Below are positions 5,812 through 20,345 of a DNA stretch of 25,241 nucleotides, one piece after another. A program made the position numbers and the translations under genes. Source of the DNA: a virus; the IMG/VR virus record IMGVR_UViG_3300034198_008553, positions 1-25,241 of that record; one strand, given 5' to 3'. How positions within the stretch are numbered: position 1 is the stretch's first letter; each line of letters starts with the position of its first letter. Below the pieces are notes generated by a model, which had not been told where the DNA came from, made no database searches, and was given only the letters and a program-made list of their open reading frames with translations.

Positions 5812-6018
5812 TTAAATTTTTGGAGGTTTTCTATGACCCATACCCATCATTACAGGGTTATGTGCCTTTTTCTTCTTCAAATGAACTCCAGGCTCTCTTT
5901 GGTCAGCAGGCAATCTAGAATCTCCTGTAGAAGCAACACCACCTACTGTATTTGTTGGTCCCCCACCAATAGCGCCACCGCCCATTCCATCTTCACAAAA
6001 TTGTTTAAAAGATTTCAT
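5812..6018 (-). CDS. Small Gly-rich protein with capsid-targeting-like N-terminus
   Basis: The ATG at 6018 gives a TAATG overlap with the upstream gene and yields 68 residues starting MKSFKQFCEDG; the GTG four codons upstream is rejected. After the N-terminal motif come Gly-rich segments (GMGGGAIGGGPTNTVGGVA) and a basic tail (HLKKKKAHNP). Similar small Gly-rich proteins with this N-terminus occur in many aquatic T4-like phages (recollection, not a search). The first ten residues resemble the T4 capsid-targeting sequence but lack the (I/L)xE cleavage site. It is likely virion-associated; the precise role is unknown. Confidence 0.6.
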   Translation of the reverse strand: MKSFKQFCEDGMGGGAIGGGPTNTVGGVASTGDSRLPADQREPGVHLKKKKAHNPVMMGMGHRKPPKI

Positions 6019-7469
6019 TAGCAATTCCACTTTCTTAAAGCTTTATTGATACGAGAATTTGGATCACGTGCAGTTTTAGCAGATGTTAATCTTTTTTTCA
6101 TACCACCCATACGAGCACAAAATGATTTACGGCGTTTAGCTGCTTTACTACCCTTTTTTAATTTAGAGGGTTTTGTTGTAACAGCCATAGATAATTTTGA
6201 ACCTGGATTTTCTCTACGATAAGAAGCAATACCTTTACGATTTAATCCACCTTTTGGATCTTTACCTGCTTTTCGTTGCCATGCTGCAGTTTCGTATAGT
6301 TCTTCATCAGGAACTGCTTCAAAATCTTCCCAAATAACTTCAGGATCAACTTCATACTTTTCTGCTAATTCTACAACATAATCTTCAACAATATCAAACA
6401 TTACTTCAGGATTGTATTCTTCGTGCATTTCACTACGCATGTAATTTGCAACTGTCATGATGTAATCTTCCGCCAATGTGATTTTAGATTCTACCCACTC
6501 CGGCAAATCTGTATTTTGTCCCATCAAGTTAATCAATTCTTCAGCATTATGCATGATAGTTTTTAATTGATTAACTGCCATGTGTGGATCAGAATATTCA
6601 TGGTCTCTTTTTTCATAAATTTCAACTTCTTCTTTAGTACTTCTCCAACCGCCACCCATTGATTTGTATTTTTTAGAAGCCCAACCATTAGCATATGCAG
6701 AAGGATAAACAGCAAATTTAGATTTGGCAGCTGCCTTAGCACGTGCCCATTTCTCTGGACTTGTTGGAACATTTTTTTCGTCCAACGTTTCATTTTTTTC
6801 CATAAATGATTTAAATGTTTTCATTTTTGTTCCTTCTTTTAATCTTTCTGCGTTGCTTTTTCTTAAAGGATGGTCTGGATTTTTATAAGGAGTTTTTCTT
6901 AATCCTTTTGAATCATAATCTCCAGATTTTTTCTTTGCAATTGCTGTTGCAGCTGCAATTGCGGCCGCAGCACTTTCTGTTTTGACATTGATTGGTGCAC
7001 CACGGCGTTCTGGATTAGGATCTTCACGGCGTTTTCTTTGTGATGCTTTAGCTCTGCCTTCTTTACCCAATGCATTTGCTTTTGCTCTTGGTAAACATTT
7101 TGGTTTGCCTTCACCTGGTTCTCTAGCACAATGTCCCTTGACATTACCTTTGGTGTCCATGCGAACCCAATCTTGTTTAAACCATTTGCGCAAATCTTCA
7201 TTGATCCAATCGTCAGGTGTTTTACCGTGTTTTGATTTAAAGTCGTTGTGTAGGTCTTTGCCTGTGATGCCGTGTTTTTTGGATATTTTTGTCATTAATC
7301 CATCAATTGTGTCATAATCATGGCTATCTAATTTTTTTAAACCATCTTCCAACTCTTTAACATGATCCTCTTTTGTGCAACTTCCTGGAGAATAAGGTTT
7401 TTTACCTGGAACAGGTCTATGACCTGGCCAACATCTACCTTTTTCTCTAATTTGTTTAAAAGTTTTCAT
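6018..7469 (-). CDS. 483-residue modular, probably head-packaged protein
   Basis: This is a chain of short phage modules. Residues 1-10 are MKTFKQIREK. A Cys/Pro/Gly segment follows (GRCWPGHRPVPG). The region around 95-165 has WFKQDWVRMDTKGN and C-LPRAKA, similar to DUF5872-like modules. A second MKTFKSFMEK lies at 216-225. WARAKAAAKSKFAVYPSAYANG is at 241-262, an acidic helical region at 287-390, and a basic C-terminal module has SFCARMGGMKKRLTSAKTA and a terminal KALRKWNC. Family names are from memory. (I/L)xE tripeptides sit at module borders (89-91, 229-231, 284-286, 391-393), matching the T4 prohead protease consensus. The start is ATG, overlapping the next upstream gene by ATGA. I infer a structural or packaged protein; no enzyme motif is seen. 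Confidence 0.7.
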   Translation of the reverse strand: MKTFKQIREKGRCWPGHRPVPGKKPYSPGSCTKEDHVKELEDGLKKLDSHDYDTIDGLMTKISKKHGITGKDLHNDFKSKHGKTPDDWINEDLRKWFKQDWVRMDTKGNVKGHCAREPGEGKPKCLPRAKANALGKEGRAKASQRKRREDPNPERRGAPINVKTESAAAAIAAATAIAKKKSGDYDSKGLRKTPYKNPDHPLRKSNAERLKEGTKMKTFKSFMEKNETLDEKNVPTSPEKWARAKAAAKSKFAVYPSAYANGWASKKYKSMGGGWRSTKEEVEIYEKRDHEYSDPHMAVNQLKTIMHNAEELINLMGQNTDLPEWVESKITLAEDYIMTVANYMRSEMHEEYNPEVMFDIVEDYVVELAEKYEVDPEVIWEDFEAVPDEELYETAAWQRKAGKDPKGGLNRKGIASYRRENPGSKLSMAVTTKPSKLKKGSKAAKRRKSFCARMGGMKKRLTSAKTARDPNSRINKALRKWNC

Positions 7470-7675
7470 TTTTTACCTGCAATATAATTGTAGTCGTCCA
7501 TCGTTAGTGTGCCACGATGGCGAATATCAATAAGTCTTTCAACTACTTTATGTAAATCTACGTCCGTTTTTATATCTTCACGAACCAATTCAAAAACACG
7601 AATCAATAATGGAATATCAAAAGCGATGATATCTTTTTTATCCGCTTCATTGATATGTTGCTTAAATGATTTCAT
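7466..7675 (-). CDS. Small conserved phage protein with capsid-targeting-like N-terminus
   Basis: The 69 residues begin MKSFKQHINEA, which aligns position for position with the T4 internal-protein leader MKTYQEFIAEA, including I8-N-E10 followed by A11 where the T4 prohead protease would cut. The rest is a compact helical domain (DIPLLIRVFELVREDIKTDVDLHKVVERL, ending LTMDDYNYIAGKK) that I recall as recurrent in marine T4-like phages without known function. It overlaps both neighbours by ATGA. It is likely packaged in the head or part of the prohead core. Confidence 0.7.
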   Translation of the reverse strand: MKSFKQHINEADKKDIIAFDIPLLIRVFELVREDIKTDVDLHKVVERLIDIRHRGTLTMDDYNYIAGKK

Positions 7676-8058
7676 ATTTTCCTTAATATTTCTGCAATAT
7701 TTGGTTCTAATGGAATATCAGATGAGTAAATTGTTTTACCATTTATTCCAGTTACTTCGTCTGGCATGATATCCAAATAATCCAAAAATGTTTTTAGTAT
7801 ATCGTAATCTCGTTCATCTATTTTATAGAATAAAATTCTTGCTGTTGGTATAGGACCAAAAACATTATTCAATAAAATAACATGATTTAAAATTAATCTT
7901 TCTTTTAAAGATTTTGTAACTTTGTATCTACGAAACAACCTCTTTAAATATTTCGTTCTTTTAATGTCGCTCTCAAATTCTGACATAATACAATGAGGTG
8001 AAGCATAACACTTCACCACATATAACATAAAGTTTTCTTCGTTCAAATCTTCAAACAT
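7672..8058 (-). CDS. Conserved phage protein, unknown function
   Basis: This 128-residue soluble, mainly helical protein contains ESDIKRTKYLKRLFRRYK and LKERLILNHVILLNNVFGP, with a C-terminal segment ending LEPNIAEILRKI. I recall similar proteins next to structural genes in T4-like aquatic phages but cannot name a function. It overlaps both neighbours (TAATG with the methyltransferase stop, ATGA with the next gene), so its expression is coupled to them. Confidence 0.62.
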   Translation of the reverse strand: MFEDLNEENFMLYVVKCYASPHCIMSEFESDIKRTKYLKRLFRRYKVTKSLKERLILNHVILLNNVFGPIPTARILFYKIDERDYDILKTFLDYLDIMPDEVTGINGKTIYSSDIPLEPNIAEILRKI

Positions 8059-8669
8059 TATTTAACTGCTTCTAATGTCATTGATTCTAATTGTAAAAAT
8101 TCTTTACCCATTCTTGGCCAATTTTCCAAATCTCTTAAATTGGCATCATCACTTTCACAAATTTTATGTTCGGTGATATTTTTAAATCCTGCCAATTCTA
8201 AACTTTTAGCCAAAGTTTTTTTATCATAAATGAAAACGTGTCCCCAATCTCTCACAAAATTATTGAAAAGAAATACTTGGTCATTATAAGGCGCCCATTT
8301 CATCATTAATGGTGTTGCCCATTCCAAATATCTCTTATACAATTCATTGTCAGGATTAAGATACATCTCCACTAAAAAACCTAAATCTGGTGTAGTAATT
8401 CTAATTCTTCCACCAGTTTTCATAGCTCTATATGTTTCTCTCAACATAGCTTGACCTTTTTCATAGGTCAAATGCTCAATCGTGTGTTCTGAATAAGCAT
8501 AATCAAAAGTTTCGTTGAAAAATGGAAATGGCTGAGTAATATCAGCTTTGAGAATGTTGGGGTTACCGTGAGGTTCCCAATCTACATTCAACCATCCATC
8601 CAACACATGCGAATCAGAACCTAAATGTAATTTTCTTACTTCATTTTGTTCAAAATACTGCCGAATCAT
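8058..8669 (-). CDS. SAM-dependent methyltransferase, class I (type 11-like)
   Basis: The 203 residues contain a Rossmann-type SAM site: LHLGSD as motif I, LNVDWE with an acidic residue for the ribose hydroxyls, ILKADITQPFPF as motif II, then YSEHTIEHL and MKTGGRIRITTPD typical of type 11 methyltransferases. The substrate is unknown; a sugar, lipid or protein is as likely as nucleic acid. A good ribosome binding site (GAGGAAATATAATG) precedes the ATG, which lies 19 bases beyond a strong hairpin. A related but distinct methyltransferase sits in the glycan block at 16543-17274. Confidence 0.82.
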   Translation of the reverse strand: MIRQYFEQNEVRKLHLGSDSHVLDGWLNVDWEPHGNPNILKADITQPFPFFNETFDYAYSEHTIEHLTYEKGQAMLRETYRAMKTGGRIRITTPDLGFLVEMYLNPDNELYKRYLEWATPLMMKWAPYNDQVFLFNNFVRDWGHVFIYDKKTLAKSLELAGFKNITEHKICESDDANLRDLENWPRMGKEFLQLESMTLEAVK

Positions 8670-8688
8670 TATATTTCCTCAAGTTTAA

Positions 8689-8708
8689 GGGGGATACGAA
8701 TATCCCCC
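8689..8708 (-). terminator. Terminator-like hairpin with UUCG loop
   Basis: A perfect 8-bp stem (GGGGGATA / TATCCCCC) closes a four-base loop that reads UUCG in the minus-strand transcript. It lies 28 bases beyond the stop of the Ig-like virion protein gene. There is no run of U after the stem, only CTTAAACTT, so it may be partial, or act as an RNA-stabilising 3' end instead. T4 uses UUCG-loop hairpins as terminators. Confidence 0.7.
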
Positions 8709-8736
8709 AACATCAATTTTAAAAATTAATACTTAA

Positions 8737-9459
8737 TTAATAAATTCTAACTTGGCTATTAGCAGAGTATACTGTTACACCAGAATTTTGGATTCCAGCG
8801 TTTGTTGCTGTAATCTTTGCACGGTATACGTAATTGTTTGCTGTTGTAGCTGTTGGTGCTAAAGTTACTGTAGCTGTATCAGAATTAGATTTCTTCATGC
8901 TACCAGGTTGACCTGTTGTAACATTTACACCAGTTGGCATATCAACCCAATTCATACCACCAGCATTAACTTGCCATTGATATGTTAGAGTTGCACTAGA
9001 AGGAACAACTGTTGTACCAACTACAGACAATGTTGTTGTATTAGCACCTTGAGCATTAGCAGTTAATGTGCGCAATGTTGCAGGTTGTGTGATTGTGATT
9101 ACTGCATCAGGTAATGTTGCATCGTCACTATTGTTGTCTGATTGAACATTGGCGATAGTAACTAAAGTTTCCCATGTTACACGACCTGCACGGCCACCAG
9201 AACCTTCTTTTCTTAAATTCCAGCCAGAATGTGCTGGTTTTACAGAAGTAGATTCTTGTACCTGTTCTTCAGCAGAATCAACCATGAACAATCCAATTTT
9301 TTCGTCTGTGGTATATACATCAGAAGATGTGTTACCATACAGTAATGCCACATTGGCAGCTGTTGGTCTAGCACGATTTGGATTGTCAGGTGCTACCGTT
9401 GAATTGACCACCCAATATGGTGCGTTTGATGATGCATCGTAATTTCCCCATGAGGACAT
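8737..9459 (-). CDS. Virion structural protein with C-terminal Ig-like domain
   Basis: The 240 residues begin MSSWGNYDASSNAPYWVVNS, with PNRARPTAANVALLYGNT after it, an N-terminal domain I recall as common in structural proteins of marine T4-like phages. Residues about 75-105 hold HSGWNLRKEGSGGRAGRVTWETLV. From about 120 the sequence turns into a Thr/Ser/Val-rich beta domain with TLTYQWQVNAGG and YVYRAKITATNAG, the usual look of an Ig-like phage domain. Such domains decorate capsids or tails and bind glycans or cell surfaces weakly. It has its own late promoter, a strong ribosome binding site (AAGGAGAAAAACATG) and a terminator hairpin, consistent with high late expression. Confidence 0.75.
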   Translation of the reverse strand: MSSWGNYDASSNAPYWVVNSTVAPDNPNRARPTAANVALLYGNTSSDVYTTDEKIGLFMVDSAEEQVQESTSVKPAHSGWNLRKEGSGGRAGRVTWETLVTIANVQSDNNSDDATLPDAVITITQPATLRTLTANAQGANTTTLSVVGTTVVPSSATLTYQWQVNAGGMNWVDMPTGVNVTTGQPGSMKKSNSDTATVTLAPTATTANNYVYRAKITATNAGIQNSGVTVYSANSQVRIY

Positions 9460-9491
9460 GTTTTTCTCCTTAAATATCCTTGTTTGTTAAC

Positions 9492-9499
9492 TATTTATC
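9492..9499 (-). promoter_or_regulatory. T4-type late promoter, GATAAATA
   Basis: The minus strand reads GATAAATA immediately after the stop of the preceding gene and 32 bases before the ATG of the virion protein gene. T4 late promoters are TATAAATA, and T4-like cyanophages use NATAAATA, recognised by the gp55-type sigma with gp33 and the clamp. The same octamer occurs at 23383-23390. Confidence 0.68.
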
Positions 9500-10726
9500 T
9501 TACTTCTTTTTCTTATCCTTAACAACCTTATCAATTTCGTTAGGTTGATTATTAGGACGATTCTTCATTAGGGGGTCAATTTCAATGGTGTCCCTAGGTT
9601 CACCAGTTAAAGTCTTACCACCACTCATAATTGCTGCTGCTTCAGGTTCTTTTGCAACCTCGTTACTGTCATCTGTTTTAATGAACTTTGGTTTTTTACC
9701 ATAAGACGCAACAGATTTATCTTCTTTTTCGTGGTCATATACTTCTTCTTTGACCGCATTATGTTTTTTATATAAAGACTTAATCATTCGAGCCGATTTA
9801 GTTAATTCGGATTTTCTGATATTTGATGGTTGTTGAACATCATCAGCACCATTTGCAGCATCAGCCACAGTTTGAGTTGCAGCCTGTGGATCTTGATAAG
9901 TATCTTCTTTAACTACAGCATCATGAGGATATTTTTCAGAATGTCCTTTACCATCTCTTTGAACATGAATAGATTGATTATCAACTTTGGTTACTTTACC
10001 TTTTTGTTTACCAAAAAACTTAGAATGAACAACAACAGAATCACCCACTTTGTGTTCAGCTTCTTCTTTATTTAAATGTTTTTCTAAACGGTCGATAGCA
10101 CCTTTGACATCAGTTTGGCCTGCTGCATGACGAGCTTTCATTTGTTTTTCAATCTCATTATGTTTTTTTGCTCTTTCAGCAGATGCTTGACGGAACTTAT
10201 CTAAAGCAGTTCCTTGTATTGTTTTAACTTCATCAAGTACAGTATCTTCTTTATGTAATCCATTTGTTGTAACAACTTTATTCATATGTTTAGATTTGTC
10301 TAAAGAATGTTTTCTAAGTTGTACTGAAGTATGTTGTGAGGAAATACCCTCATGCATATGTGTCTGTTTCCATCTAATGAAATCAGCTGATTTTGCATAT
10401 GAAATTTTTTGTGATAGAGAAACATATTTTGGATTCATACCTTTATATAAAAGATATTGTTCCAATTCACTTTCGTTGATGTTTTCAACTTCTTCAAATG
10501 TGTGTTGTTGTTTCCATTTAATAAATGCAGAAGATTTAGCATGAGAGATTTTAGTATCTTTACTAACTCTTTTAGGATCAATTCCACGAGATAACAAATA
10601 TGTATCTAATGAAGCTTCATTGATACCAGCTCTAGTTGACCAAGGGTCATTAGGATCAGTACCAAAGGTGGACTTGGGTGCCACACCTTTGATAATCTCC
10701 TTTAGTTTTTTTGCCAGTTTGTGCAT
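9500..10726 (-). CDS. 408-residue modular charged protein with tandem repeats, probably head-interior
   Basis: The ATG at 10726, preceded by AGGAAATAACTAAT, is chosen over a TTG nine codons upstream. The protein is Lys/Glu/His-rich with little hydrophobic core. It holds two tandem 41-residue repeats (35-75 and 83-123), each opening with INE and ending in FI-K/R-WKQ. A KOW-like segment follows at about 225-272 (HKVGDSVVVHSKFFGKQKGKV), then a disordered acidic/basic tail ending KVVKDKKKK. (I/L)xE sites occur at 35-37, 83-85 and 164-166. The composition fits prohead scaffold or packaged internal proteins. No enzyme signature is seen. Confidence 0.68.
   Translation of the reverse strand: MHKLAKKLKEIIKGVAPKSTFGTDPNDPWSTRAGINEASLDTYLLSRGIDPKRVSKDTKISHAKSSAFIKWKQQHTFEEVENINESELEQYLLYKGMNPKYVSLSQKISYAKSADFIRWKQTHMHEGISSQHTSVQLRKHSLDKSKHMNKVVTTNGLHKEDTVLDEVKTIQGTALDKFRQASAERAKKHNEIEKQMKARHAAGQTDVKGAIDRLEKHLNKEEAEHKVGDSVVVHSKFFGKQKGKVTKVDNQSIHVQRDGKGHSEKYPHDAVVKEDTYQDPQAATQTVADAANGADDVQQPSNIRKSELTKSARMIKSLYKKHNAVKEEVYDHEKEDKSVASYGKKPKFIKTDDSNEVAKEPEAAAIMSGGKTLTGEPRDTIEIDPLMKNRPNNQPNEIDKVVKDKKKK
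10358..10480 (-). repeat. In-gene repeat, copy B
   Basis: This encodes residues 83-123 of the 408-residue protein (INESELEQYLLYKGMN...). It matches copy A at 24 of 41 positions. The conserved core is IS-x-AKS-x-x-FI-x-WKQ. Confidence 0.8.
10502..10624 (-). repeat. In-gene repeat, copy A
   Basis: This encodes residues 35-75 of the 408-residue protein (INEASLDTYLLSRGID...). The two copies are spaced 48 codons apart, indicating a tandem domain duplication. Confidence 0.8.
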
Positions 10727-10727
10727 A

Positions 10728-12080
10728 TTAGTTATTTCCTGGAGCTTTACCAAGCATTTCTGTTTTGATACGTTTCATTGCTTGACGAGCCAAGTCTTTT
10801 GCACGACTCATTGGAGTATGAACTGCACCAGATTTATCTTTTACATTTTGTGGTGTTGTTGAATATGGTTGTTCAAATGGTGCATCATCTTGTCCAGGTG
10901 AAAGTGTTTTTGCTTCATTGGTTTCTTTTTTGCCTGCTAAGAAACGACCAAAGTTTTTCAAATCACCTTTTAAAGAAGGTTTTTTACCCATATCTTTTAA
11001 ATAAGATTTATCAGCAACATCTTGATTCTTTTTTGGTGTTTCTTCTGACAATTCAGATTGTTCTTTAAATGAATTTGGTTTTCCATATTTTGGATCCAAA
11101 CGGTCAATTTTATCCTCTAAACCAGGTTTAGCTATATCGGAACGTATTGCAGCAGAATCAGCAGGTTCTTGTTTTGGTGGAGCTTTCATTTCACCATCAG
11201 ATTTCAATTTTAATTTGAATGATTGGAAAGAATTGGATCTACCACCTTCTTCACGACCTTTTAATGTGTCTGTAGTAATACGGTCTGGATTAGTATCGGA
11301 AGTTGTTACTTTGGCTTCATCCAATTCATATTCTTCTTTTTTCAAAGCGGTTTTCTTAACCATCTTTTTAACTAATTCTTTATCTTCTTCTTCATCATCA
11401 TGTTTCTCACCAGCTTCTTTTTCTTCATTCTGTTTTGCATAGTAAGCACCTAATGCCATCTTCTTACGTTCAGCTTTAGTCTTACCTTTGAATTTTGGAT
11501 TATCTGAGTGAATGAAATCATGAATCCAGTCACCAGCAGAAGCATCTTTACTCAACACTTCATTGAGTTCTTCTTCAACTTCTTCAGCAAATATAGCATG
11601 GTTGATTAAACGAGAAGCAAAATTATAACCTTCTTTGTGATGCATCTTTTTTTCGTGACCTTTTACTTCTTTCTTAGCAATGTTTTTTGCTTCAGGTTCA
11701 GTAACACAATCACCTTCTTCTTTAAGGTCTTTGTCTTTTGGTTCTTTAACTTTATCAATGTCGTGTTTGGTTTGGTCTTTACGAGCTTTAGCGGAATCAC
11801 CATAACGATGACCATACACTTTCATACCAGTAGGAGTAGGAACTTTTTCAGAAGTTGCTTCATCGACAGTTTCTTCCATACATTCACCATAAGTGATGTT
11901 TTCGCCTTGAACTTTAACAGGATATGTCTTACCTTTAAATGTAAACATTTTTTGGCCTGCTGAATGTGCTGCATAAGCAGCTTTACGCAAACCTGTTTCA
12001 TCTAGTTCCGCTTCTTTAGCCATTACTTTTTTAACGGCTTCAGCAATAGCATCTAGTTGCATATTATTTTTGGTAAACAT
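10728..12080 (-). CDS. 450-residue modular charged protein, probably head-interior
   Basis: This is a low-hydrophobicity protein built of modules separated by acidic/basic linkers. LRKAAYAAHSAGQKMFTFKG is at 31-50. VLSKDASAGDWIHDFIHSD followed by FKGKTKAERKKMALGAYYAKQ is at 175-217, a module I recall from many structural or prohead-core proteins of T4-like aquatic phages. Basic helical stretches follow, and a C-terminal RAKDLARQAMKRIKTEMLG. (I/L)xE sites precede modules (LDE 26-28, LNE 172-174, LDE 253-255). The start ATG has a strong ribosome binding site (CAGGAGAAATAAATG) inside the end of the upstream gene. A role in the prohead core or as packaged protein is inferred. Confidence 0.68.
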   Translation of the reverse strand: MFTKNNMQLDAIAEAVKKVMAKEAELDETGLRKAAYAAHSAGQKMFTFKGKTYPVKVQGENITYGECMEETVDEATSEKVPTPTGMKVYGHRYGDSAKARKDQTKHDIDKVKEPKDKDLKEEGDCVTEPEAKNIAKKEVKGHEKKMHHKEGYNFASRLINHAIFAEEVEEELNEVLSKDASAGDWIHDFIHSDNPKFKGKTKAERKKMALGAYYAKQNEEKEAGEKHDDEEEDKELVKKMVKKTALKKEEYELDEAKVTTSDTNPDRITTDTLKGREEGGRSNSFQSFKLKLKSDGEMKAPPKQEPADSAAIRSDIAKPGLEDKIDRLDPKYGKPNSFKEQSELSEETPKKNQDVADKSYLKDMGKKPSLKGDLKNFGRFLAGKKETNEAKTLSPGQDDAPFEQPYSTTPQNVKDKSGAVHTPMSRAKDLARQAMKRIKTEMLGKAPGNN

Positions 12081-13886
12081 TTATTTCTCCTGTTTCTTTT
12101 TCTTTTTATTAATTACTGTGATTAGGTTTTTATCAACATCTTTATAGGTTTGCATCGGTTCTTTGTTATCGGAACCACTTAATGTTCCCCCAACTCCAGA
12201 TTCCACATCATTTTGGAATCCATTAAACTCTCTAATAATACTTCTAAATTTTTTGAAATCTTTTTGTTCTCTATAAGTTACATCGCCTAGTCCAGACATA
12301 GGGTATACTGTTCCCTGTTGGCGAGTGTCATATTCAGGTCCAATACCTGTAGTATTTCTCATTCTCTGATTCTGTGTTGGAGAATCAGAGAACCGCTTTC
12401 TCTTTAGTTTTTCTTTGTCTTGGGAGAAGTTGCTTTCTTTTTCTGCTGGCCGGATTTTGATGCTCGGCTTCTTGGCTTCTTCTGCGTAGGTGCCTGGACC
12501 TGCACCGAAGGTGTAGGTTTTGGTTCGCTTGGGAGCGTTCCACTTGAGGTTTCCTGAATTGGAGTCTCCTGCTCTGTTGTCTGGACTGATATCGTCTGGA
12601 CCGTCTGCTTTGGGGCCACCGGTTTTAATTTTAGAAAATCTATTAATTTTTTCAACATTTTTTTCTTCCTTGAACATTAAATTAAACTTCACATTTATAT
12701 TTAGCCGGTTGTTGTTTTTTAACCAGCTCTCTGTCACTACATTATATATCTCAGTATCAATAAAACTATTAATTTTTTTGTATATATCGGTGATGTTTTC
12801 TTCAACCGATTCTATTGAACCACTATTATCGAATATTGTAACATTTTTAAAAGATTCAAGGAAAATATTTTTATTATTTTGTGCTTGTAACCATTTTTCT
12901 TGTCTAATAGACTCAACCATCATTCGAGTCAGCCTGGAGTTTCTTTCTTGGCTGGCTTGGTTTGTGGTATCAACAAAAACCATCAATGTACTGTATCCTA
13001 ATTCTTCCAATTCTTCTTTAATGTAAGATATCTTTTCAATGTCATCGGCAGGACTATTAATGACTAATGGACCACGATTTCTAATAGCTTCTCTGCGGTA
13101 ATCTGTTGATTTTTCAGATAATTTTTGTTTATCAGCAAGATAATCAAAAGCCTGTGTTGCATTTAGTTCAACAGCTCTGGCCTCAGCAATAGATTCTCTT
13201 ATAATGATATCTTTACCTGAACCCGGACCACCAGTAACAAAAATTGCGTGGAATAGACAACGATTGGTAGATTCATGTAAACCCATTCCTTTACGAACAT
13301 CGTGCATTAACTCTTTGGCATGATGGTCAGAAACATGAGAAGGAACGCCTTTCCTAAACTCATGGTGGTTCTTATTCTTGGCATGTTCTCTCATCTTAGT
13401 ACCAGACATACCTTCTGCACCTTCTGCGTCAGGATCACGGTGACCAGCTGAATGAACAGTAATCTTTTTAAAGTTGTAGTGACCATGAGGACCTTTTACA
13501 CCATTGTATTTGTGTAATAAATGGTGCATTTCTTTGACACGGTCAGAACCAACAACCATATGTAAATGTGTCACACCAGACTTGTGTAATTTTGATGCAT
13601 GGTGTAGAACGGTAGAATGTTCTTTTGACGCTTTTTCAAAATGAGTACCAGGTGAATATCTGGTCAAATGTTTTACTTTTTGTTCTGGTGATAATGGATT
13701 CTTTTTAGAATCTTGTGAATGTGAAACCACTACTGAATGGGAAGCATTCTTATTCTTAGCAATTTCTTTAACCTTATCGATTAATTTTAAATGACCAGTA
13801 GTGGGAGGATTCATCCTTCCAAAAGTAGTAACATGATGTTTACTTGATGATTCTTCTTCTTGGAGGATTTCTAAAAACGATTTCAT
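12081..13886 (-). CDS. Nucleotidyltransferase-P-loop kinase fusion with capsid-targeting-like N-terminus
   Basis: The 601 residues comprise four parts. (a) Residues 1-10 are MKSFLEILQE, a capsid-targeting-like leader with L8-Q-E10. (b) About 18-205 is a cytidylyltransferase/NMN-adenylyltransferase-like domain with TFGRMNPPTTGH (the (H/T)xGH site) and SGTKMREH (the ISSTxxR-like motif at 161-168). (c) About 213-385 is a P-loop kinase-like domain with Walker A GGPGSGKD at 219-226. (d) About 415-601 is a Gly/Pro/Lys-rich tail like those of structural proteins. The order nucleotidyltransferase then kinase resembles the bifunctional NAD-salvage protein NadR without its repressor domain; the substrate is not provable here. 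The N-terminal domain is about 14% His. It overlaps the ligase-like gene by ATGA. Confidence 0.75.
   Translation of the reverse strand: MKSFLEILQEEESSSKHHVTTFGRMNPPTTGHLKLIDKVKEIAKNKNASHSVVVSHSQDSKKNPLSPEQKVKHLTRYSPGTHFEKASKEHSTVLHHASKLHKSGVTHLHMVVGSDRVKEMHHLLHKYNGVKGPHGHYNFKKITVHSAGHRDPDAEGAEGMSGTKMREHAKNKNHHEFRKGVPSHVSDHHAKELMHDVRKGMGLHESTNRCLFHAIFVTGGPGSGKDIIIRESIAEARAVELNATQAFDYLADKQKLSEKSTDYRREAIRNRGPLVINSPADDIEKISYIKEELEELGYSTLMVFVDTTNQASQERNSRLTRMMVESIRQEKWLQAQNNKNIFLESFKNVTIFDNSGSIESVEENITDIYKKINSFIDTEIYNVVTESWLKNNNRLNINVKFNLMFKEEKNVEKINRFSKIKTGGPKADGPDDISPDNRAGDSNSGNLKWNAPKRTKTYTFGAGPGTYAEEAKKPSIKIRPAEKESNFSQDKEKLKRKRFSDSPTQNQRMRNTTGIGPEYDTRQQGTVYPMSGLGDVTYREQKDFKKFRSIIREFNGFQNDVESGVGGTLSGSDNKEPMQTYKDVDKNLITVINKKKKKQEK
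12362..12392 (-). repeat. Perfect 12-bp inverted repeat (hairpin) inside coding sequence
   Basis: The arms TTCTCTGATTCT and AGAATCAGAGAA are perfect complements around a 7-base loop. In the minus-strand mRNA it lies 11 bases after the stop of the nested ORF 12404-12658 and within the C-terminal tail codons of the fusion gene. There is no U-run after it. Confidence 0.85.
12404..12658 (-). CDS. Possible overprinted small basic protein nested in the fusion gene
   Basis: An 84-codon ORF in the +1 frame relative to the 601-residue gene starts with ATG after CAAGGAAGAAAAAA, a good Shine-Dalgarno at 8-base spacing. The product starts with an amphipathic MLKKLIDFLKLK, has a Thr/Gln/Pro-rich middle and ends in a histone-tail-like basic segment (KKPRSRASKSGQQKKKAT). 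It looks like a genuine small phage protein rather than a random frame. The DNA here is about 52% GC over 12421-12600 against about 25% in the next 60-base line (12661-12720), as could result from two coding constraints. The host frame remains open and plausible, so this may still be chance. Confidence 0.42.
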   Translation of the reverse strand: MLKKLIDFLKLKPVAPKQTVQTISVQTTEQETPIQETSSGTLPSEPKPTPSVQVQAPTQKKPRSRASKSGQQKKKATSPKTKKN

Positions 13887-15073
13887 TTGCGAACTTTTAA
13901 TAAATTTTGTTTTGCAAATTCAGCACGGTTAACCAATTTAGTTGGTTGATTATCATGATGAACGACAAAACCTTCAGGCTTAGATTTTTTGCCAGCAATA
14001 TGATGTTTGTAGTGACCTTCATGTGTTTCTAAAGATTTAACCAAAGCATTTTTGGCTTGGTGTAAATGATGGTGCATTGCAAATAGGTTTCCATAGTGTG
14101 CTTTATGTTTTTCGACATGAGCAATTTGAGATTTACCTTCACTTCTTTTTTCTTCTTTACTCTTATCGGTTTTTACTTTTGCTGCCTGCTTTTCATGTTC
14201 ATGGTGTAAATGTTCTTTAAAACCTTTAACACTAGGCACCTCATCATGTCTAACTGTATGATTTATATATGATGCTAAGTGTCCGTGTTCTCCACTATGT
14301 TTGTGGTGAATAGAATCATACATTTTGTGACCATGAGTATCGTGAATTTCTTTAGCAGCAGTCATGTGCTTGTGAAACTCTTTTTCTCTTTCTGGAGTAT
14401 GTTTCACTTTACTTGTATCATGTTCTGCGCCATGTAAATGAACATCTGGATGTTCTTTAAATTTACTGGTATCTACATGAGGTGAAGCGTGTTTCATATC
14501 ATGGCTATATTCATGATGAACCACCACTCCAACTTTAGATTTCTTAATCTTTTCGGCTTCTTTACCATGTGCAGTATATGTGATTGTATTTGGTGTAAAA
14601 GATACATCACCTTTAGCTTCAACAATATAACTTTCATGTAAAGTCTTGGTATCAGCATGGTGCATCAAGTCACCTTGATATACTCCATGTTTTGGTGTTA
14701 CTTTTGGTAAATGTTTTAGTGCATGTTTAAGTGTGTGTGCTAAACCAGGAGCATGGCCATGGTTCCTATCAATATCTGCTTCAGTATGATTAATCTTTGG
14801 ATTCTTATTGAAAGCAGATTTGGTCGCAACAAAAAACTTACCATTTTTAGGGTGGTGACCAAAAACAATAGATGGTGAACCATCATATTTCATTGTTAAA
14901 TTGGTGTTCTTGTGACCAGATTTGACGTGTTCATGAGCTTTCATCAAGGCAGCATGAGCATGCTCAAACCCAGCATGACCGTGCATTAGGGGCCTATCTT
15001 CTGCGTGATGAATGTGTTTAAGTTCAGAACCTTTTTCAGATTCTTCCGTTAAGAATGACTTAAATGATAACAT
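13883..15073 (-). CDS. His-rich ligase/nucleotidyltransferase-fold protein with capsid-targeting-like N-terminus
   Basis: The 396 residues begin MLSFKSFLTEE, a leader ending L8-T-E10. The catalytic signature is MKYDGSPSIVFG: K62-Y-D-G65 is motif I (the adenylated lysine) of the ATP-dependent ligase/capping superfamily. GVYQGDLM at 130-137, VGVVVHHEY at 181-189, PEGFVVHH at 366-373 and K379 could serve as motifs III-V. I recall cyanophage homologues with VKWDGAPAI and the same GKFFVATK...NKNPK core (DUF6267-like, name from memory). Unusually, 62 of 396 residues are His. It has a perfect late promoter and an AAGGAAAATT ribosome binding site. RNA or DNA ligase activity is possible but unproven. 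Confidence 0.75.
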   Translation of the reverse strand: MLSFKSFLTEESEKGSELKHIHHAEDRPLMHGHAGFEHAHAALMKAHEHVKSGHKNTNLTMKYDGSPSIVFGHHPKNGKFFVATKSAFNKNPKINHTEADIDRNHGHAPGLAHTLKHALKHLPKVTPKHGVYQGDLMHHADTKTLHESYIVEAKGDVSFTPNTITYTAHGKEAEKIKKSKVGVVVHHEYSHDMKHASPHVDTSKFKEHPDVHLHGAEHDTSKVKHTPEREKEFHKHMTAAKEIHDTHGHKMYDSIHHKHSGEHGHLASYINHTVRHDEVPSVKGFKEHLHHEHEKQAAKVKTDKSKEEKRSEGKSQIAHVEKHKAHYGNLFAMHHHLHQAKNALVKSLETHEGHYKHHIAGKKSKPEGFVVHHDNQPTKLVNRAEFAKQNLLKVRK

Positions 15074-15118: not shown

Positions 15119-15126
15119 TATTTATA
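15119..15126 (-). promoter_or_regulatory. T4-type late promoter, perfect TATAAATA
   Basis: The minus strand reads TATAAATA, the exact T4 late consensus, in an intergenic region 45 bases before the ATG at 15073. It would drive the ligase-like gene, the fusion gene and the modular head proteins as one late transcript. It marks the border between the glycan block and the head-protein block. Confidence 0.82.
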
Positions 15127-15197: not shown

Positions 15198-15854
15198 TTA
15201 ATCTATTTCAACACCATAATATCTACAAATGCCGTGTTTTCCATGAAATCCTAAACTTTTTCCTAACCAAGGAGAAGAAAGATTATGTTCTATACTGAAT
15301 CTGTCGGCCAATTGAGATGGTGCATATTTGATTTGATATTTCTGTTCCAAGACTTCTCTGTGTATTCTACAAATATACTCATCTTCCAATCTGTTGTTAT
15401 GTGGTTCTTTTAAATCAGCAAGAGCCGACAATAATTTTTTACTTCTCAATGAAAAACCACCATTTCCAACAACATTGATGTTTTTCCATTCTTCATGCCA
15501 CCACGACCATGTTGCACCAATATAATCATAATTTAAAAACTCATCCGTCCAAGCTTCTGAATTAACAGCGTAACCATCACTCTGTACGACAATCACATAA
15601 TCTTCTGTAACAAGGTGTAATAACTTATTCAATAAAACATCATTTAATTGTTGATTTAATGTCTTAGGATCAATTTTATCAATAATGGTGTAAACTATAT
15701 TATACTCTGTTTGTACAGGAAAAGCAACATCAGAGAACCAATAAATGGTAGAAATGTCAATTTTATCTTTTAAGGTATTGACGGTGCTCATAACAGCTCT
15801 AGAAGCTGCTTCATAATTTAAAGTATCAACACAAACTATACCAAATTTTTTCAT
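15198..15854 (-). CDS. DUF5672-type putative glycosyltransferase
   Basis: This 218-residue protein has LVTEDYVIVVQSDGYAVN, FLNYDYIGATW and VVGNGGFSLRSKKLL, the hallmarks of DUF5672 proteins, which look like GT-A glycosyltransferases (QSDG in place of DxD, GNGGFSLR in the acceptor loop). The C-terminus has LEDEYICR and IEHNLS. It should transfer a sugar in surface polysaccharide assembly; donor and acceptor are unknown. It is the last gene of the glycan block, overlapping the gene before it by ATGA and followed by the 124-base intergenic region. Confidence 0.75.
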   Translation of the reverse strand: MKKFGIVCVDTLNYEAASRAVMSTVNTLKDKIDISTIYWFSDVAFPVQTEYNIVYTIIDKIDPKTLNQQLNDVLLNKLLHLVTEDYVIVVQSDGYAVNSEAWTDEFLNYDYIGATWSWWHEEWKNINVVGNGGFSLRSKKLLSALADLKEPHNNRLEDEYICRIHREVLEQKYQIKYAPSQLADRFSIEHNLSSPWLGKSLGFHGKHGICRYYGVEID

Positions 15855-16546
15855 CTTGTGGTATCAAATGTAATTGTTTCGGACATATCATTTCGGTATT
15901 GACTTGGTGTCCAATACCATCTTCTATCAGGACCAGGATGCATATCATACCATTTTGGATTTCCACTACCGTGCCAACATTCTGAATCAAATCTCATGTG
16001 TGGTTGGCCTTCAAACTGTGGTTGAAAATTATTTTCTGGTGGAGTTTTCATTCGTTTACATCTTCTGAGATAAGAAGCTCTTGCCCAAAAGAAATTTCCA
16101 GCATAAAAAGGATGAGGAGGATTATTTAAAAAAGATGCACCACAAGTTTCATAACCTTCGTCTAACTTTTCAATACATTCTTTCCATCGTTCAATACAAA
16201 AATATTCCATATATTTTCGCCAACCAACTTGATTACTAAAAGCACCTTTATGGTGAATGTATAACACATAATATTCTTCATCATTACTATGAACATCTTC
16301 TTGTAATTTGTGTAACGTGGTTTGTTCGTGCCATTCTTTGTAATCTGAATTGAAAAAATGAAATTTAACATTGTTTCTATTTTGCCATCTTTCCCCTAGC
16401 CAATTAAATTTTTGGTGGTCAAAATGTAAGCAGAAAGTGGCTTCATCACAAGCATCCAATAATCCTGTGTTTTCCAACAACTCTGCTTGTTCCATCGTTA
16501 TTTGTGGAGCATTTTCTACCACATGACTGTATAATTTTATTTTCAT
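15851..16546 (-). CDS. Polysaccharide-type glycosyltransferase-like protein (RgpF-like)
   Basis: This 231-residue protein contains YYVLYIHHKGAF, WRKYMEYFCIERWKECIEKLDEGYETCGASF and HPFYAGNFFWARASYLRRCKRM. This pattern (HxKG, WR-x-YM, GY-x-T-x-G, GNFFWA) resembles proteins annotated as rhamnan or capsule synthesis (RgpF-like) in bacteria and giant viruses. Catalytic details are not visible. ATGA overlaps connect it to both neighbours in the glycan block. It is probably a sugar transferase or partner for a surface glycan. Confidence 0.58.
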   Translation of the reverse strand: MKIKLYSHVVENAPQITMEQAELLENTGLLDACDEATFCLHFDHQKFNWLGERWQNRNNVKFHFFNSDYKEWHEQTTLHKLQEDVHSNDEEYYVLYIHHKGAFSNQVGWRKYMEYFCIERWKECIEKLDEGYETCGASFLNNPPHPFYAGNFFWARASYLRRCKRMKTPPENNFQPQFEGQPHMRFDSECWHGSGNPKWYDMHPGPDRRWYWTPSQYRNDMSETITFDTTR

Positions 16547-17274
16547 ACTTTTAAATTTTTAGAATTTTCTAATAGTTTTAAATAATAATCTCGTAAATCA
16601 ATATCTGTTGGTGTTTCTGTTTTTGGAATACCGACAAATTTAATCATATTGGTGTCAATATTATTGGATTGACCAAAGTAATAACCGTGTGATTTTGCTT
16701 CAGTTTGAAACCCAGCATCATTCATAGAGTTAGGATAAACTACAGATTTATGTATCGTTCCTTCTAATACAATAAATTCTTCATAATTTAAATATTCTTT
16801 ATCTGATTTGGCTTCTGAGATTTCACCGTTGAGAAAATGATGATTGATAACATGACTAGGTAATGGAGTCACCAAGATGATGTATTTGGCAACCCTTTTC
16901 ATTTCTTCTATTGCAGGAATAACATCCTCTTTATAAAGATGTTCCAAGTTTTCAATTGATAATACAACATCAAATTCTTGGTCTTTGAATGGTAGTTTAC
17001 TAGATTGAGCCAAATAGACTTCATTATATACATCTTTTGTTTTTAACAAGTCTACAGCTTTGGTTGACCAGTCAAGTGCAACCGTTCTTGAAAATGTTTC
17101 TTTACCGACAGTATATGAAATTTTTTTGAATTGTTCACCTGAACCACAACCCACGTCTAAAATAGACATAGGTTTATTTTTCATTTCTTCAATCAATTTA
17201 ATTACATAATCAGATAATTCTAATGGTGCTGTTTGACCGTGTTCTTTATGTTTTTCACGATAAGGTCTACTCAT
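16543..17274 (-). CDS. SAM-dependent methyltransferase of the glycan block
   Basis: The ATG at 17274 gives an ATGA overlap with the upstream gene and yields 243 residues; an ATG six codons upstream is possible but less likely. Residues around 37-47 hold SILDVGCGSGEQF, a canonical motif I, followed by VALDWSTKAV (acidic residue at the end of beta 2), SKLPFKDQEFDVVLSIENLEHL and ILVTPLPSH. This is a class I methyltransferase of the type 11/12 kind. Its place among glycosyltransferases suggests O-methylation of a sugar, for example capping a glycan chain. The C-terminal region is not typical and may bind the acceptor. Confidence 0.82.
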   Translation of the reverse strand: MSRPYREKHKEHGQTAPLELSDYVIKLIEEMKNKPMSILDVGCGSGEQFKKISYTVGKETFSRTVALDWSTKAVDLLKTKDVYNEVYLAQSSKLPFKDQEFDVVLSIENLEHLYKEDVIPAIEEMKRVAKYIILVTPLPSHVINHHFLNGEISEAKSDKEYLNYEEFIVLEGTIHKSVVYPNSMNDAGFQTEAKSHGYYFGQSNNIDTNMIKFVGIPKTETPTDIDLRDYYLKLLENSKNLKV

Positions 17275-17966
17275 AATAAATCTAACTTCCATTGTTGATT
17301 AAACATATTAATATTTCCTTTACCTTGCAGAGCATAGAAAGGAGTAGTATGTAGTAATCCCACAGAACCATAAAAATAATTTAATTTTTCTTTTTGGGGT
17401 AGAACGGAAGCAAAATGTGATGTACCAGTATCGCCACCAACAAAATGACTACATTCAATAATATGCTCAATGTTTTTTATAAAATCATGACTACAAGACC
17501 AGCCTGATACACTAGAGAACCAATCTTTTACACAAATCACCTTTTCGTAGTCATCATATTCTTTTTGTGAATAGTGTTCTATAATATCATCAGCCATTTG
17601 TTTAGGCCAATTTCGATACGTGTTATATGGACCATCAAACAAAGGAGCAATAACAATTTTTTTCTTAGTTGGTTTAGCAAAATCAAGCTTGAGTATGTCG
17701 CCAGTCATTGACCTTAGTTCCCAAAGATTGGCGTTTTGAATATTCAATACATTTTGTCCTTCGGTTTTTACAAAATGGTTCGTATTGTCTACCAACCAAT
17801 CTCTAAATCTTCGAATGTAATCATTTGGTTGTATTGAACGGTCTGGAACATGAAACTGTAATTCTTTATTATCTTTCCATAGATATTCGATGAAGTTCAT
17901 CAACGCAATTAAATCTCCATTGCGCATCGGTCCACCAAAGTTGTGAGGTTCAATATTGATAATCAT
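17271..17966 (-). CDS. GT9-like (heptosyltransferase-type) glycosyltransferase
   Basis: The 231 residues end in a GT-B C-terminal half with ECSHFVGGDTGTSHFASVL, the donor-binding signature of the ADP-heptose:LPS heptosyltransferase family (GT9), and KKIVIAPLFDGPYNTYRNWP resembling the linker strand before it. The N-terminal half is short. It overlaps the upstream GT9-like gene by 17 bases; the two may be duplicated or cooperating enzymes. It should act on a lipid-linked or outer-core sugar, if active. Confidence 0.65.
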   Translation of the reverse strand: MIINIEPHNFGGPMRNGDLIALMNFIEYLWKDNKELQFHVPDRSIQPNDYIRRFRDWLVDNTNHFVKTEGQNVLNIQNANLWELRSMTGDILKLDFAKPTKKKIVIAPLFDGPYNTYRNWPKQMADDIIEHYSQKEYDDYEKVICVKDWFSSVSGWSCSHDFIKNIEHIIECSHFVGGDTGTSHFASVLPQKEKLNYFYGSVGLLHTTPFYALQGKGNINMFNQQWKLDLL

Positions 17967-18690
17967 GTATATAAAATAATTTACTATTTCTATTTTTATA
18001 ATAGTGTAAATCGAAATCGTGTTCTACAGGTTTGCCTTGCCAGTTTCTCATATCTTCGTCCCACAAAACATGAGTTTCTTTTTTCATTAAGTCAGCAAGA
18101 ATACCAATACCAGTAAATGTTGATATAAAAGGCTTTGCACTTTTCTTAACTAAATTGCAATTATACATCAAATCTTTTGTATAGTCAAGGTAAATAGCAT
18201 TTTCTTTTGGTATAATATTGGCACTCTCAATCAAATTAGAATATCGTCTTGTATCTACATCAACAGCATCTTTAGGTGACCATCTATCACCAATAACAAA
18301 TTTATCACCAGTATCTTCTACCAAAACATCTTGTAGTTTTAATTCAAAATCATCATCACATTCAAAATCAATTTTATAATTATCACGGATAAAAGTATAC
18401 ATTTTATGTGTAACGATAGGCCTTGTACCGTAACCTTCTTCTGTACCAGTATCTTCAAGTAAGATGTAGTTATTATCGGTGGTATATAATTCATACATGA
18501 AATTGACATTAGAAAAGAATCCTTGTGCCATCAAGAGTTCTTTGATGCCTTTAAATCTTTCCAATCGATTACAAATGCCAAAAGATATTTGAGAATCTAA
18601 TTTTTTTGCCAAACCTGACAACACAGGTAAACAATGTATAAAGTCGCCAAGATTGTGTATGCGTGGAGAATATACTCTAATTTTGTTCAT
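17950..18690 (-). CDS. GT9/heptosyltransferase-like protein, second copy
   Basis: The start at 18690 has a good ribosome binding site (TTTTTAGGAAATACAATG) and is preferred over an ATG 15 codons upstream, giving 246 residues. The N-terminus IRVYSPRIHNLGDFIHCLPVLSGLAKK matches the GT-B N-terminal pattern of heptosyltransferases (GD-x-IHxLPxL). The C-terminal half (SAKPFISTFTGIGILADLMKKETHVLWDE) retains the position of the donor loop but is divergent. It overlaps the previous gene by 14 bases and the next by 17. Together with the following gene it forms a pair. Confidence 0.62.
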   Translation of the reverse strand: MNKIRVYSPRIHNLGDFIHCLPVLSGLAKKLDSQISFGICNRLERFKGIKELLMAQGFFSNVNFMYELYTTDNNYILLEDTGTEEGYGTRPIVTHKMYTFIRDNYKIDFECDDDFELKLQDVLVEDTGDKFVIGDRWSPKDAVDVDTRRYSNLIESANIIPKENAIYLDYTKDLMYNCNLVKKSAKPFISTFTGIGILADLMKKETHVLWDEDMRNWQGKPVEHDFDLHYYKNRNSKLFYIHDYQY

Positions 18691-19501
18691 TGTATTTCCT
18701 AAAAATTCTAAACCAGTCATTTGGATCGGCTTCATGTAATTCGAATTCTTCTGGATTACTTAAATAAGACATGAGTAATAATGTTTGGTCATCATCAATT
18801 AATTTATGATTTAACAAAACATTTAAATTACTCAAAATTAAATCTTTGAATAGTTTCCACTTTTCTGTGCCAGCAACAATATGGCATCCTTGAACATAGA
18901 CATCGCCTGTATAAATGATACTATCAATAGGTCTCTTTTGGTCGATAGGATATTGATTGAATAGATGAATCTTAGTCTTATCAAAAGGATAAGTCCACCG
19001 ATTGCATGGAGGTATTGTGGTGCTATCCCTAACATAACCAAAGTCTATCCAAGCAGTTAAATAATTTTTAACAAAGCCACTTTCAATCGCATGTTCAACA
19101 TATAAAGATTTGAAGATGTTTACCAACACATAATCTGCATGCCAATATTCAATTAGTTGTGGATTAACAACTTTACCATAATAATTGGGGTCATCCATAA
19201 TTTCTTGAATTTTACTTTTAACAGGTTCAAATCCACCTGGCAGATAAGAATCTATAGAAACGACATTTGTTTTATCTTCAAGTCCATGTGATTTGCGTAT
19301 GTTATAAACCGTTTCAACAAAATTTGGCGTTGTATAGATGACCATATCATTTTCAAGTTTGGCCAAATTATTAAAGAATTGAAAATAAGTATCGACACTT
19401 CTATGTTGATAATGTGGTAAAACTCTACCATGTTTTTCATTAGGTAAATTTCCTCTACCAATATCAAAGAAAGCAGTTACTACTGTAATATCATTTTGCA
19501 T
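18677..19501 (-). CDS. HtrL/YibB-like protein
   Basis: The ATG at 19501, with GAGAAAAAAT upstream, gives 274 residues; a TTG four codons earlier is rejected. The start ITVVTAFFDIGRGN, then VDTYFQFFNNLAKLENDMVIYT and a C-terminal HEADPNDWFRIFRKYNE, fit the HtrL/YibB family, found in LPS core regions of enterobacteria and in polysaccharide clusters. The family is thought to be glycosyltransferase-like, with no proven reaction that I know of. It sits in the middle of the glycan block with overlaps on both sides. Confidence 0.65.
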   Translation of the reverse strand: MQNDITVVTAFFDIGRGNLPNEKHGRVLPHYQHRSVDTYFQFFNNLAKLENDMVIYTTPNFVETVYNIRKSHGLEDKTNVVSIDSYLPGGFEPVKSKIQEIMDDPNYYGKVVNPQLIEYWHADYVLVNIFKSLYVEHAIESGFVKNYLTAWIDFGYVRDSTTIPPCNRWTYPFDKTKIHLFNQYPIDQKRPIDSIIYTGDVYVQGCHIVAGTEKWKLFKDLILSNLNVLLNHKLIDDDQTLLLMSYLSNPEEFELHEADPNDWFRIFRKYNEQN

Positions 19502-20345
19502 ATTTTTTCTCAATCTCTTTTTTCCATTCAGGAATTCTATTGTATTGATGAACCATTACATACTTTTCACCTAAACTATTATATACATATTCGCCATCAA
19601 ATGTGGGTTCAGGACTCAACAGATTTGGTCTAAAGATATCAATTCTTTTTGGATCAACTGTTGTACCACATTGACAAGACCAGTTCGTATCGTGGTCATT
19701 AAAATTGGTGATTGATTTGTATGGTTCTAAAGATAATAATAAATTTACTCCAGCTTGGTCTGGTGTAGGATGATTGATTCGTTCTATAATTAAAGCCACA
19801 TTCAAAGAAAAGTCTTTAAATGTTTCAAATTCACCTGCCATTGAACCTGCATTATAGATAGGTCTATCTTTCATGTAATCCTGTATTAATGGTCCATAAC
19901 ATTCAGCCATGTTATTGAAGCCCCATTCTGTTTCGTTTTTATATTTTAAAGATTCACAACCATAATTCAATTTTTTACCATTCATATTCTCTGTTAGCCA
20001 ATCAGATGGATTTAATTGAAATACGATATCAACATCAGTAGAAATGACATAACGAATATCTTTTTGTTGGCGTAAGAACAACCAATAAAAGAAATGTCTT
20101 GCCATTGGTGTTTGAAATGTGAAGTTATCCATAAAATGGTAACCGTTATTTTCTTTATTTCTGTTTTCAGATGCCAAAAAGATTTCGAACCCACGGTCAG
20201 TTAGTTGTTTGATTGTTTCATCTGACACATTAAAACAAATCATGGCCTTTCGACCACTATATCCTGTTTGTTCTAAGGAGTTAATCCAATGTTCAATCTT
20301 ATCAAATTCATAAGACGATATTGCTGAAATCACTAAATCTTGCAT
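19491..20345 (-). CDS. Putative GT-A glycosyltransferase
   Basis: This 284-residue protein has IRYVISTDVDIVFQ, where DVD is a DxD-type metal/sugar-nucleotide site, preceded by ARHFFYWLFLRQQ and followed by RPIYNAGSMAGEFETFKDF and TPDQAGVNLLLSLEP. The NAG-x-MAG loop with a downstream D-Q-A is common in glycosyltransferases of polysaccharide loci. Near the C-terminus SCQCGTT and VMVHQYNRIPEWK recall the acceptor-side region. It overlaps its upstream neighbour by 13 bases and its downstream one by 11. Confidence 0.72.
   Translation of the reverse strand: MQDLVISAISSYEFDKIEHWINSLEQTGYSGRKAMICFNVSDETIKQLTDRGFEIFLASENRNKENNGYHFMDNFTFQTPMARHFFYWLFLRQQKDIRYVISTDVDIVFQLNPSDWLTENMNGKKLNYGCESLKYKNETEWGFNNMAECYGPLIQDYMKDRPIYNAGSMAGEFETFKDFSLNVALIIERINHPTPDQAGVNLLLSLEPYKSITNFNDHDTNWSCQCGTTVDPKRIDIFRPNLLSPEPTFDGEYVYNSLGEKYVMVHQYNRIPEWKKEIEKKYAK

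Follow-up and report, generated by a model that had tools for sequence, protein, structure and literature searches.

The IMG/VR virus record IMGVR_UViG_3300034198_008553 raises the question of why five proteins encoded on its minus strand between positions 5812 and 15073 begin with nearly the same ten residues. The DNA analyzed here (the window) is a linear 25.2-kb IMG/VR fragment (25,241 nucleotides) that does not extend to the head genes; its source is a T4-like phage. An earlier note on this sequence had likened the shared N-termini to the leader of the T4 internal head proteins and proposed that the proteins carrying them are packaged in the capsid and ejected with the genome. We consider it very likely that the leader, M-x-[ST]-F-x-x-[FYLI]-[LIV]-x-E, directs proteins to the capsid as the leaders of T4 internal proteins do and undergoes gp21-type processing, because its conservation, the recovery of T4 ipI-III, its coincidence with virion proteins, the presence of gp21 in relatives, and the unrelated nature of the cargo agree. 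The head-targeting part of the proposal is supported by conservation and by the proteomes of relatives; packaging and late expression in this virus, the position of cleavage, and ejection are inferred. Under this explanation, tagged proteins would bind the prohead core via F4 and residue 7, become enclosed in the prohead, be cut after (I/L)-x-E by a gp21-type protease, and remain with the DNA, probably to be ejected together with the genome. One modular tag would here serve five proteins, of which one has an RNA-ligase fold, one joins a nucleotidyltransferase to a kinase, one is a polyprotein-like string of small modules, and two are small.

All five N-termini, and a sixth copy inside one of the proteins, read in the sequence as had been claimed (all coordinates below in the window are on the minus strand, and a slash marks a predicted cut). 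MLSFKSFLTE (15044..15073) opens a 396-residue DUF6267 protein (13883..15073; Pfam PF19782, 1.4e-95), MKSFLEILQE (13857..13886) a 601-residue nucleotidyltransferase and polynucleotide-kinase-like protein (12081..13886), and MKSFKQHINE (7646..7675) a 69-residue protein (7466..7675) whose relatives carry the same module fused behind other modules. These three have (I/L)xE at residues 8-10, also as claimed, and are predicted to be cut after E10. In the 483-residue protein (6018..7469), the leader MKTFKQIRE/K (7440..7469) has its motif, IRE, one residue earlier, at 7-9, with a predicted cut after E9 directly ahead of the module beginning KGRCW. The fifth leader, MKSFKQFCED (5989..6018), belongs to a 68-residue protein (5812..6018) that resembles T4 gp61.1 (38% identity over 42 amino acids, E=1e-4); its open reading frame (ORF) has a GTG start four codons upstream of the leader Met, and starting at that Met gives the 68 residues. 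F4 is found in 5/5 leaders, and residue 7 is H in the 69-residue protein. The pattern M[KL][ST]F makes up 1.1% of first-ATG starts in eight relatives, or 0.4% once homologues of the 396- and 601-residue proteins are left out, so that its presence in five of about 35 window genes lies above background (p=4e-5 or 3e-7, by background used); for M..[FY]...[IL].E, found in 3/35 genes, the corresponding values are p=3e-3 or 4e-4. As these patterns were chosen post hoc, the real weight lies in independent tests.

One such test is conservation, counted over the distinct N-termini of IMG/VR homologues of the 396- and 601-residue proteins. Among the 74 from homologues of the 396-residue protein, F4 and E10 are each found in 74/74, residue 7 is F in 69 and Y in 5, and residue 8 is L in 73 and I in 1; position 5 and the stretch 14-17 are free to vary. 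Homologues of the 601-residue protein have F4 in 84/84 and E10 in 81/84, and the two sets combined give F4 in 158/158 and F, Y, L, I, or V at residue 7 in 157/158. The residues fixed in DUF6267 leaders (4, 7, 8, and 10) are those tied to targeting or cleavage in T4, where genetics found residues 4 and 7 needed for capsid targeting and residues 8 and 10 for gp21 processing (PMC9026906). As a class, capsid-targeting sequences of the T4 type are N-terminal propeptides 10-19 residues long. All six Leu codons are used at Leu8; codon choice there being free, selection acts on the peptide. A model of the 396-residue protein leaves residues 1-19 outside the folded domain and assigns them low confidence.

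A second test asks whether the leader coincides with proteins found in virions. A leader profile of the kind that the earlier note wished to see scanned over related genomes was built solely from DUF6267 leaders; it recovered T4 internal proteins and ranked five S-CREM2 virion proteins first. Among T4 proteins, gp61.1, ipI, ipIII, and ipII fall within the best six. S-CREM2 has 197 annotated proteins, 41 of them in its published virion proteome (PMC10665884); the five highest profile scores belong to gp154 cytidylyltransferase, gp6 SAM hydrolase, gp14 APH/ChoK-like kinase, gp13, and gp136, and 5/5 were detected in the virion by mass spectrometry (p=3.2e-4, or p=3.5e-5 when proteins classed as structural are set aside). 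Scores drop from 9.9 to 4.1 between the fifth and the sixth. A search for relatives of gp154 returned one locus. The best match in S-SM1 is the cytidylyltransferase T4-GC190, which starts MKKFSAFLNE and which Sullivan et al. 2010 report in the purified virion (PMC3037559), while the virion cytidylyltransferase S-SZBM1_140 starts MRFRQFIIE, a nine-residue form of the leader. Published proteomes therefore place tagged proteins, both orthologues and others, in the virions of S-CREM2, S-SZBM1, and S-SM1. The profile performed better than a strict regular-expression scan of whole relatives, which found few leaders. At a score of 8 it gave 10 internal matches among 14107, and column-shuffled gene starts led us to expect 1.5 matches against 9 seen outside DUF6267; the profile alone therefore cannot call weak leaders.

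A third line of evidence concerns the predicted cut. The gp21-type protease gene, which the earlier note proposed to locate, was found in relatives, the window being a fragment without head genes: Peptidase_S77 (gp21, PF03420) occurs together with Gp23 in 8/10 large relatives or reference phages, and the two without it are partial records. In gp23 of all eight gp21-encoding relatives, an L-x-E is kept about 50 residues from the N-terminus, immediately ahead of a variable stretch that leads into the conserved shell domain; such a site near the presumed mature start would, as expected, fit a gp21 with T4-like specificity. In Melnitz-type DUF6267 proteins, (I/L)xE precedes the mature start DKGG in 34/34 distinct contexts, including those in which the leader is one residue shorter (MISFAQTLTE/DKGG vs MISFAQLTE/DKGG). 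The 483-residue protein comprises the modules KGRCW.., DUF5872-like, KRDHEY.., and DUF6321. Across its family, (I/L)xE stands ahead of the KNxPTSPEKW module in 35/35 contexts, which cover gene-start leaders of varying length as well as positions inside longer proteins, ahead of the KGRCW module in 9/10 distinct contexts, and one residue ahead of DUF6321 in 26/35 and two residues ahead in 8/35. The sixth copy of the leader, MKTFKSFMEK, occupies residues 216-225 of this protein (6795..6824), followed by LDE/KNVPTS, and in relatives separate genes begin with a leader at that place. Because (I/L)xE is fixed at module boundaries and the 483-residue protein has an excess of sites (11, including 9, 212, 231, 286, and 393, vs 3.6 expected), MKTFKSFMEK probably begins another tagged unit joined in frame to the first, and the entire protein resembles a polyprotein whose modules are separated by (I/L)xE. 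IYE/KRDHEY and LYE/TAAWQR are among the further predicted cuts in this protein.

The same abundance of sites bears on the most serious alternative, namely that tagged proteins do their work in the prohead as parts of the scaffold or core and, instead of being ejected, are then degraded or left behind. Eleven sites in one protein would suit that fate, as would an arrangement in G004 (the record behind L084), where a TTG-started ORF at 16966-17196, between portal and gp21, begins LKTLKEFLSE/KRSV and may encode a core protein of the gp67/gp68 type whose start resembles the leader. However, the 396- and 601-residue proteins have (I/L)xE at 3 and 8 places vs 2.7 and 5.3 expected, and the tagged enzymes of S-CREM2, S-SZBM1, and S-SM1 are present in mature virions. 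We regard the scaffold explanation as unlikely for the tagged proteins as a class; it may still hold for the 483-residue protein.

Less likely still is that the leader is an amphipathic N-terminal helix for binding an assembly platform or membrane, or serves translation initiation, and that virion detection reflects sticky, abundant late proteins. Short Lys-rich starts are common, and even in cellular genomes 30% of matches to the DNA pattern described below are start-like. The authors of the S-CREM2 (PMC10665884) and S-SCSM1 virion studies also allowed that enzymes might be carried over. But neither helix binding nor translation explains why (I/L)xE stays at the mature boundary when leader length changes, nor does this explanation sit well with varying synonymous codons at Leu8 or with a profile that also picks T4 internal proteins, for which the leader is proven. 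Leaderless homologues supply a further contrast: DUF6267 proteins S-CREM2 gp87 and S-SZBM1_141, which have no leader, are not among the proteins in the published virion proteomes. The leader argues against carry-over as the explanation of virion enzymes.

Capsid targeting itself has to be weighed against several observations that do not favor it. The carry-over caution just cited is one. Another is that the 68-residue protein does not have the (I/L)xE motif, reading FCE-D with no I/L at 8 and D at 10; because Asp10 in a T4 leader blocks processing and leaves targeting intact (PMC9026906), we predict that MKSFKQFCED is targeted but poorly or differently cut. The earlier note held that homologues keeping the protein but lacking the leader would refute it, and this is partly so in distant phages (homologues in HTVC008M, ACG-2014h, S-PM2, and DLP_6 have no good leader), with leaderless ones absent from the two virion proteomes that can be checked; the loss shows a tag that is modular, not universal. 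S-SZBM1_191, which has a perfect leader (MKSFKSFLSE), is missing from the published virion list, and S-SZBM1_139, a leaderless neighbor in the S-SZBM1 genome, was detected. The available virion proteomes are those of relatives, none of them this virus or a close relative. Finally, an argument for late expression from a T4-late-promoter-like TATAAATA (15119..15126), 46 bp upstream of the 396-residue gene, is suggestive only and was given little weight, as the window holds one such element vs 3.4 expected by chance. With these points counted, the leader belongs with the T4 capsid-targeting class as far as its features can be tested, virion presence and the protease having been seen in relatives.

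That the N-termini are alike merely by paralogy or a shared N-terminal domain, with no targeting role, is hardly credible even though the five genes sit in one cluster of one genome, since the downstream sequences form many unrelated clusters with different folds and different Pfam families, and T4 ipI-III bear the same leader. Related marine and freshwater viruses carry the tag on dozens of unrelated proteins. When 417 distinct tagged ORFs were clustered by mature sequence, 32 clusters without detectable similarity resulted, about half of which we judge credible. A blind scan of IMG/VR with a DNA pattern placed 118/128 matches at gene starts; in 257 Gb of cellular genomes, 34/114 matches of the same pattern were start-like, some of them matching tagged viral families. 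Among the cargoes that bear the tag are an S-AdoMet lyase (L471), a fusion of HicA to DUF6321 (L468), a protein with an HD_4 domain (L483), an ATP-grasp protein of RimK-like type (L321), a HAD protein of the polynucleotide-kinase family (L068), and further cytidylyltransferases (L445, L446). Among isolates, the tag is found on several C48C1 genes and on the cytidylyltransferases of S-RIM14, S-RIM4, ACG-2014d, S-CRM01, and P-TIM40; those of ACG-2014h and S-PM2 are untagged. L396 encodes at 6607-7110 an Acb1-family 2H phosphoesterase (PF23474, 7e-14; also an RNA-ligase PHROG) with both HxT motifs and the leader MKSFKSYLTE, possibly a virion-delivered anti-CBASS enzyme. A run of five adjoining leader-bearing genes in L506 (5915-9422, minus strand), unrelated in sequence and one with DUF5662, is a candidate effector island. 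A very common tagged small protein (ESVNISGDFNGNLYINS...) is present in L438, L449, L507, S-SZBM1_191, and others.

The 396- and 601-residue proteins are predicted enzymes, and the folds assigned to them earlier were borne out by models. In the 396-residue protein, described as having a ligase fold, motifs KxDG (I), EGxV (IV), and KLV (V) lie at 62-65, 367-370, and 379-381, and K62, D64, G65, E367, G368, V370, and K379 are invariant in 28/28 aligned sequences. All listed best matches of its model in the structure comparison are RNA or DNA ligases, including Naegleria RNA ligase (Z 8.8), Trl1, T4 Rnl2, and T4 Rnl1; Foldseek E-values are weak taken alone. The protein is predicted to have the fold of the ATP-dependent RNA ligase superfamily. 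It would share with T4 RNA ligases 1 and 2, Naegleria RNA ligase, and Trl1 the KxDG, EGxV, and K motifs and the modeled fold (Z 8.8, 3.6 A over 185 residues), at about 11% identity and with a long helical segment of its own. For the 601-residue protein, both parts of the nucleotidyltransferase-kinase description were recovered: a PPAT/NMNAT-fold nucleotidyltransferase domain at 16-205 (Z 14 over 15-205), a P-loop polynucleotide-kinase-like domain at 207-395, near polynucleotide and nucleotide kinases (Clostridium thermocellum polynucleotide kinase, Foldseek E 9e-6; GGPGSGK, GxxGxGK, at 219-225), and a disordered tail at 396-601. A PDB sequence search with this protein gave no useful match. Because the ligase adjoins the kinase, and a tagged HAD phosphatase-like gene lies between ligase-type and kinase-type genes in the L068/L098 contig, we tentatively suggest, at somewhat less than even odds, that the pair repairs RNA or DNA broken by host defenses through healing and sealing. 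Any role in NAD metabolism would likewise be a guess.

Leaderless genes are interspersed with the five tagged ones: a DUF7207 protein, a methyltransferase, a phrog_613 head protein (8737..9459, a PHROG match), and two long uncharacterized proteins. Genes 9500-10723 and 10728-12080 were checked for leaders, and none with E10 was found. Relatives of the former often begin MKKFKDIVKK or MKNFKELRNE, with hydrophobic residues at positions 4 and 7 and usually no E10, and are perhaps targeted yet uncut. Elsewhere the window encodes the end of a DnaB-type helicase, a primase, and a GH19-type endolysin, and beside the tagged cluster, at 15198-21828, a glycosyltransferase block with methyltransferase-like and sugar-nucleotide-enzyme-like genes. 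In its mature part, the 68-residue protein reads GGGPTNTVGG, which is similar to AGPTNATGSG at the presumed mature start of gp23 in relatives; S-SZBM1_134 belongs to the same comparison. In T4, gene 61.1 (AF158101 18966-19130, minus strand; L274), directly beside the primase gene, has a perfect leader, MKTFKEFIKE, and may encode an unrecognized internal protein; gp57B, beside ipI, starts MMEFKDFSTG, perhaps a leader relic. In the Cas9-like S-CREM2 gp12 (L250 7704-10313, minus strand), residues 17-25 read LRFASFMAE and follow a CTG codon, which is suggestive only; the protein shares with the small protein S-CRM01_128 (L671 953-1504) a longer N-terminal extension, SRW..WS.G...SF..E/AA, with the leader-like core at its end, perhaps representing another, longer version of the tag.

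Within a limited literature search, we found no paper that attributes capsid-targeting sequences to Kyanoviridae or to marine T4-like phages. The closest known system is T4 IPI, IPII, and IPIII (MKTFKEF.., MKTYQEFIAE), which match in leader length, F/Y4, F7, I/L8, E10, and gp21 cleavage at (I/L)xE, and likewise comprise several genes per genome whose unrelated cargo has only the leader in common. Those are small anti-restriction proteins of Straboviridae, whereas in Kyanoviridae-like phages the tag is carried by large enzymes, a polyprotein, and many unrelated families. The ADP-ribosyltransferase Alt of T4 is also a head-packaged enzyme processed by gp21 (PMC9026906, PMC5512222), but it is processed at both ends (PMC9026906), and no tagged window protein is an ADP-ribosyltransferase. 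NMNAT/cytidylyltransferase-like virion proteins of S-SCSM1, S-CBWM1, S-SZBM1, S-CREM2, and S-SM1 are homologues or analogues of the first domain of the 601-residue protein, which adds a kinase domain; the virion papers on them recognized no targeting signal. Polyvalent proteins of phages and conjugative elements (PMC5512222) are similarly multi-domain, predicted to be packaged and injected, with domains released proteolytically, but they often carry their own peptidase, whereas in the window the sites fit a prohead protease and a short leader would do the targeting.

Ejection into the host is rather likely to be the purpose of the tagging, and the tagged proteins would then act early, in host takeover or counter-defense. 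There is about an even chance that a single exchangeable tag is common to an entire virus family, uncultured relatives included, and that it delivers a ready-made kit at infection. That kit might include nucleic-acid end repair (by the RNA-ligase-fold and polynucleotide-kinase-like proteins, joined in one relative by the tagged HAD phosphatase), SAM removal, an anti-CBASS-family 2H phosphoesterase, kinases, and perhaps a Cas9-like nuclease, together with a polyprotein cut by the prohead protease into several small effectors. Several groups that met unexpected enzymes in cyanophage virions could not tell cargo from contaminant, and the tag offers both a mechanism and a test. With it, predicted first-injected proteins, which are the likeliest counter-defense and takeover factors, can be listed from any genome of this large virus group. 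If the kit proposal is true, the injected proteome of these viruses would be readable straight from their genomes.

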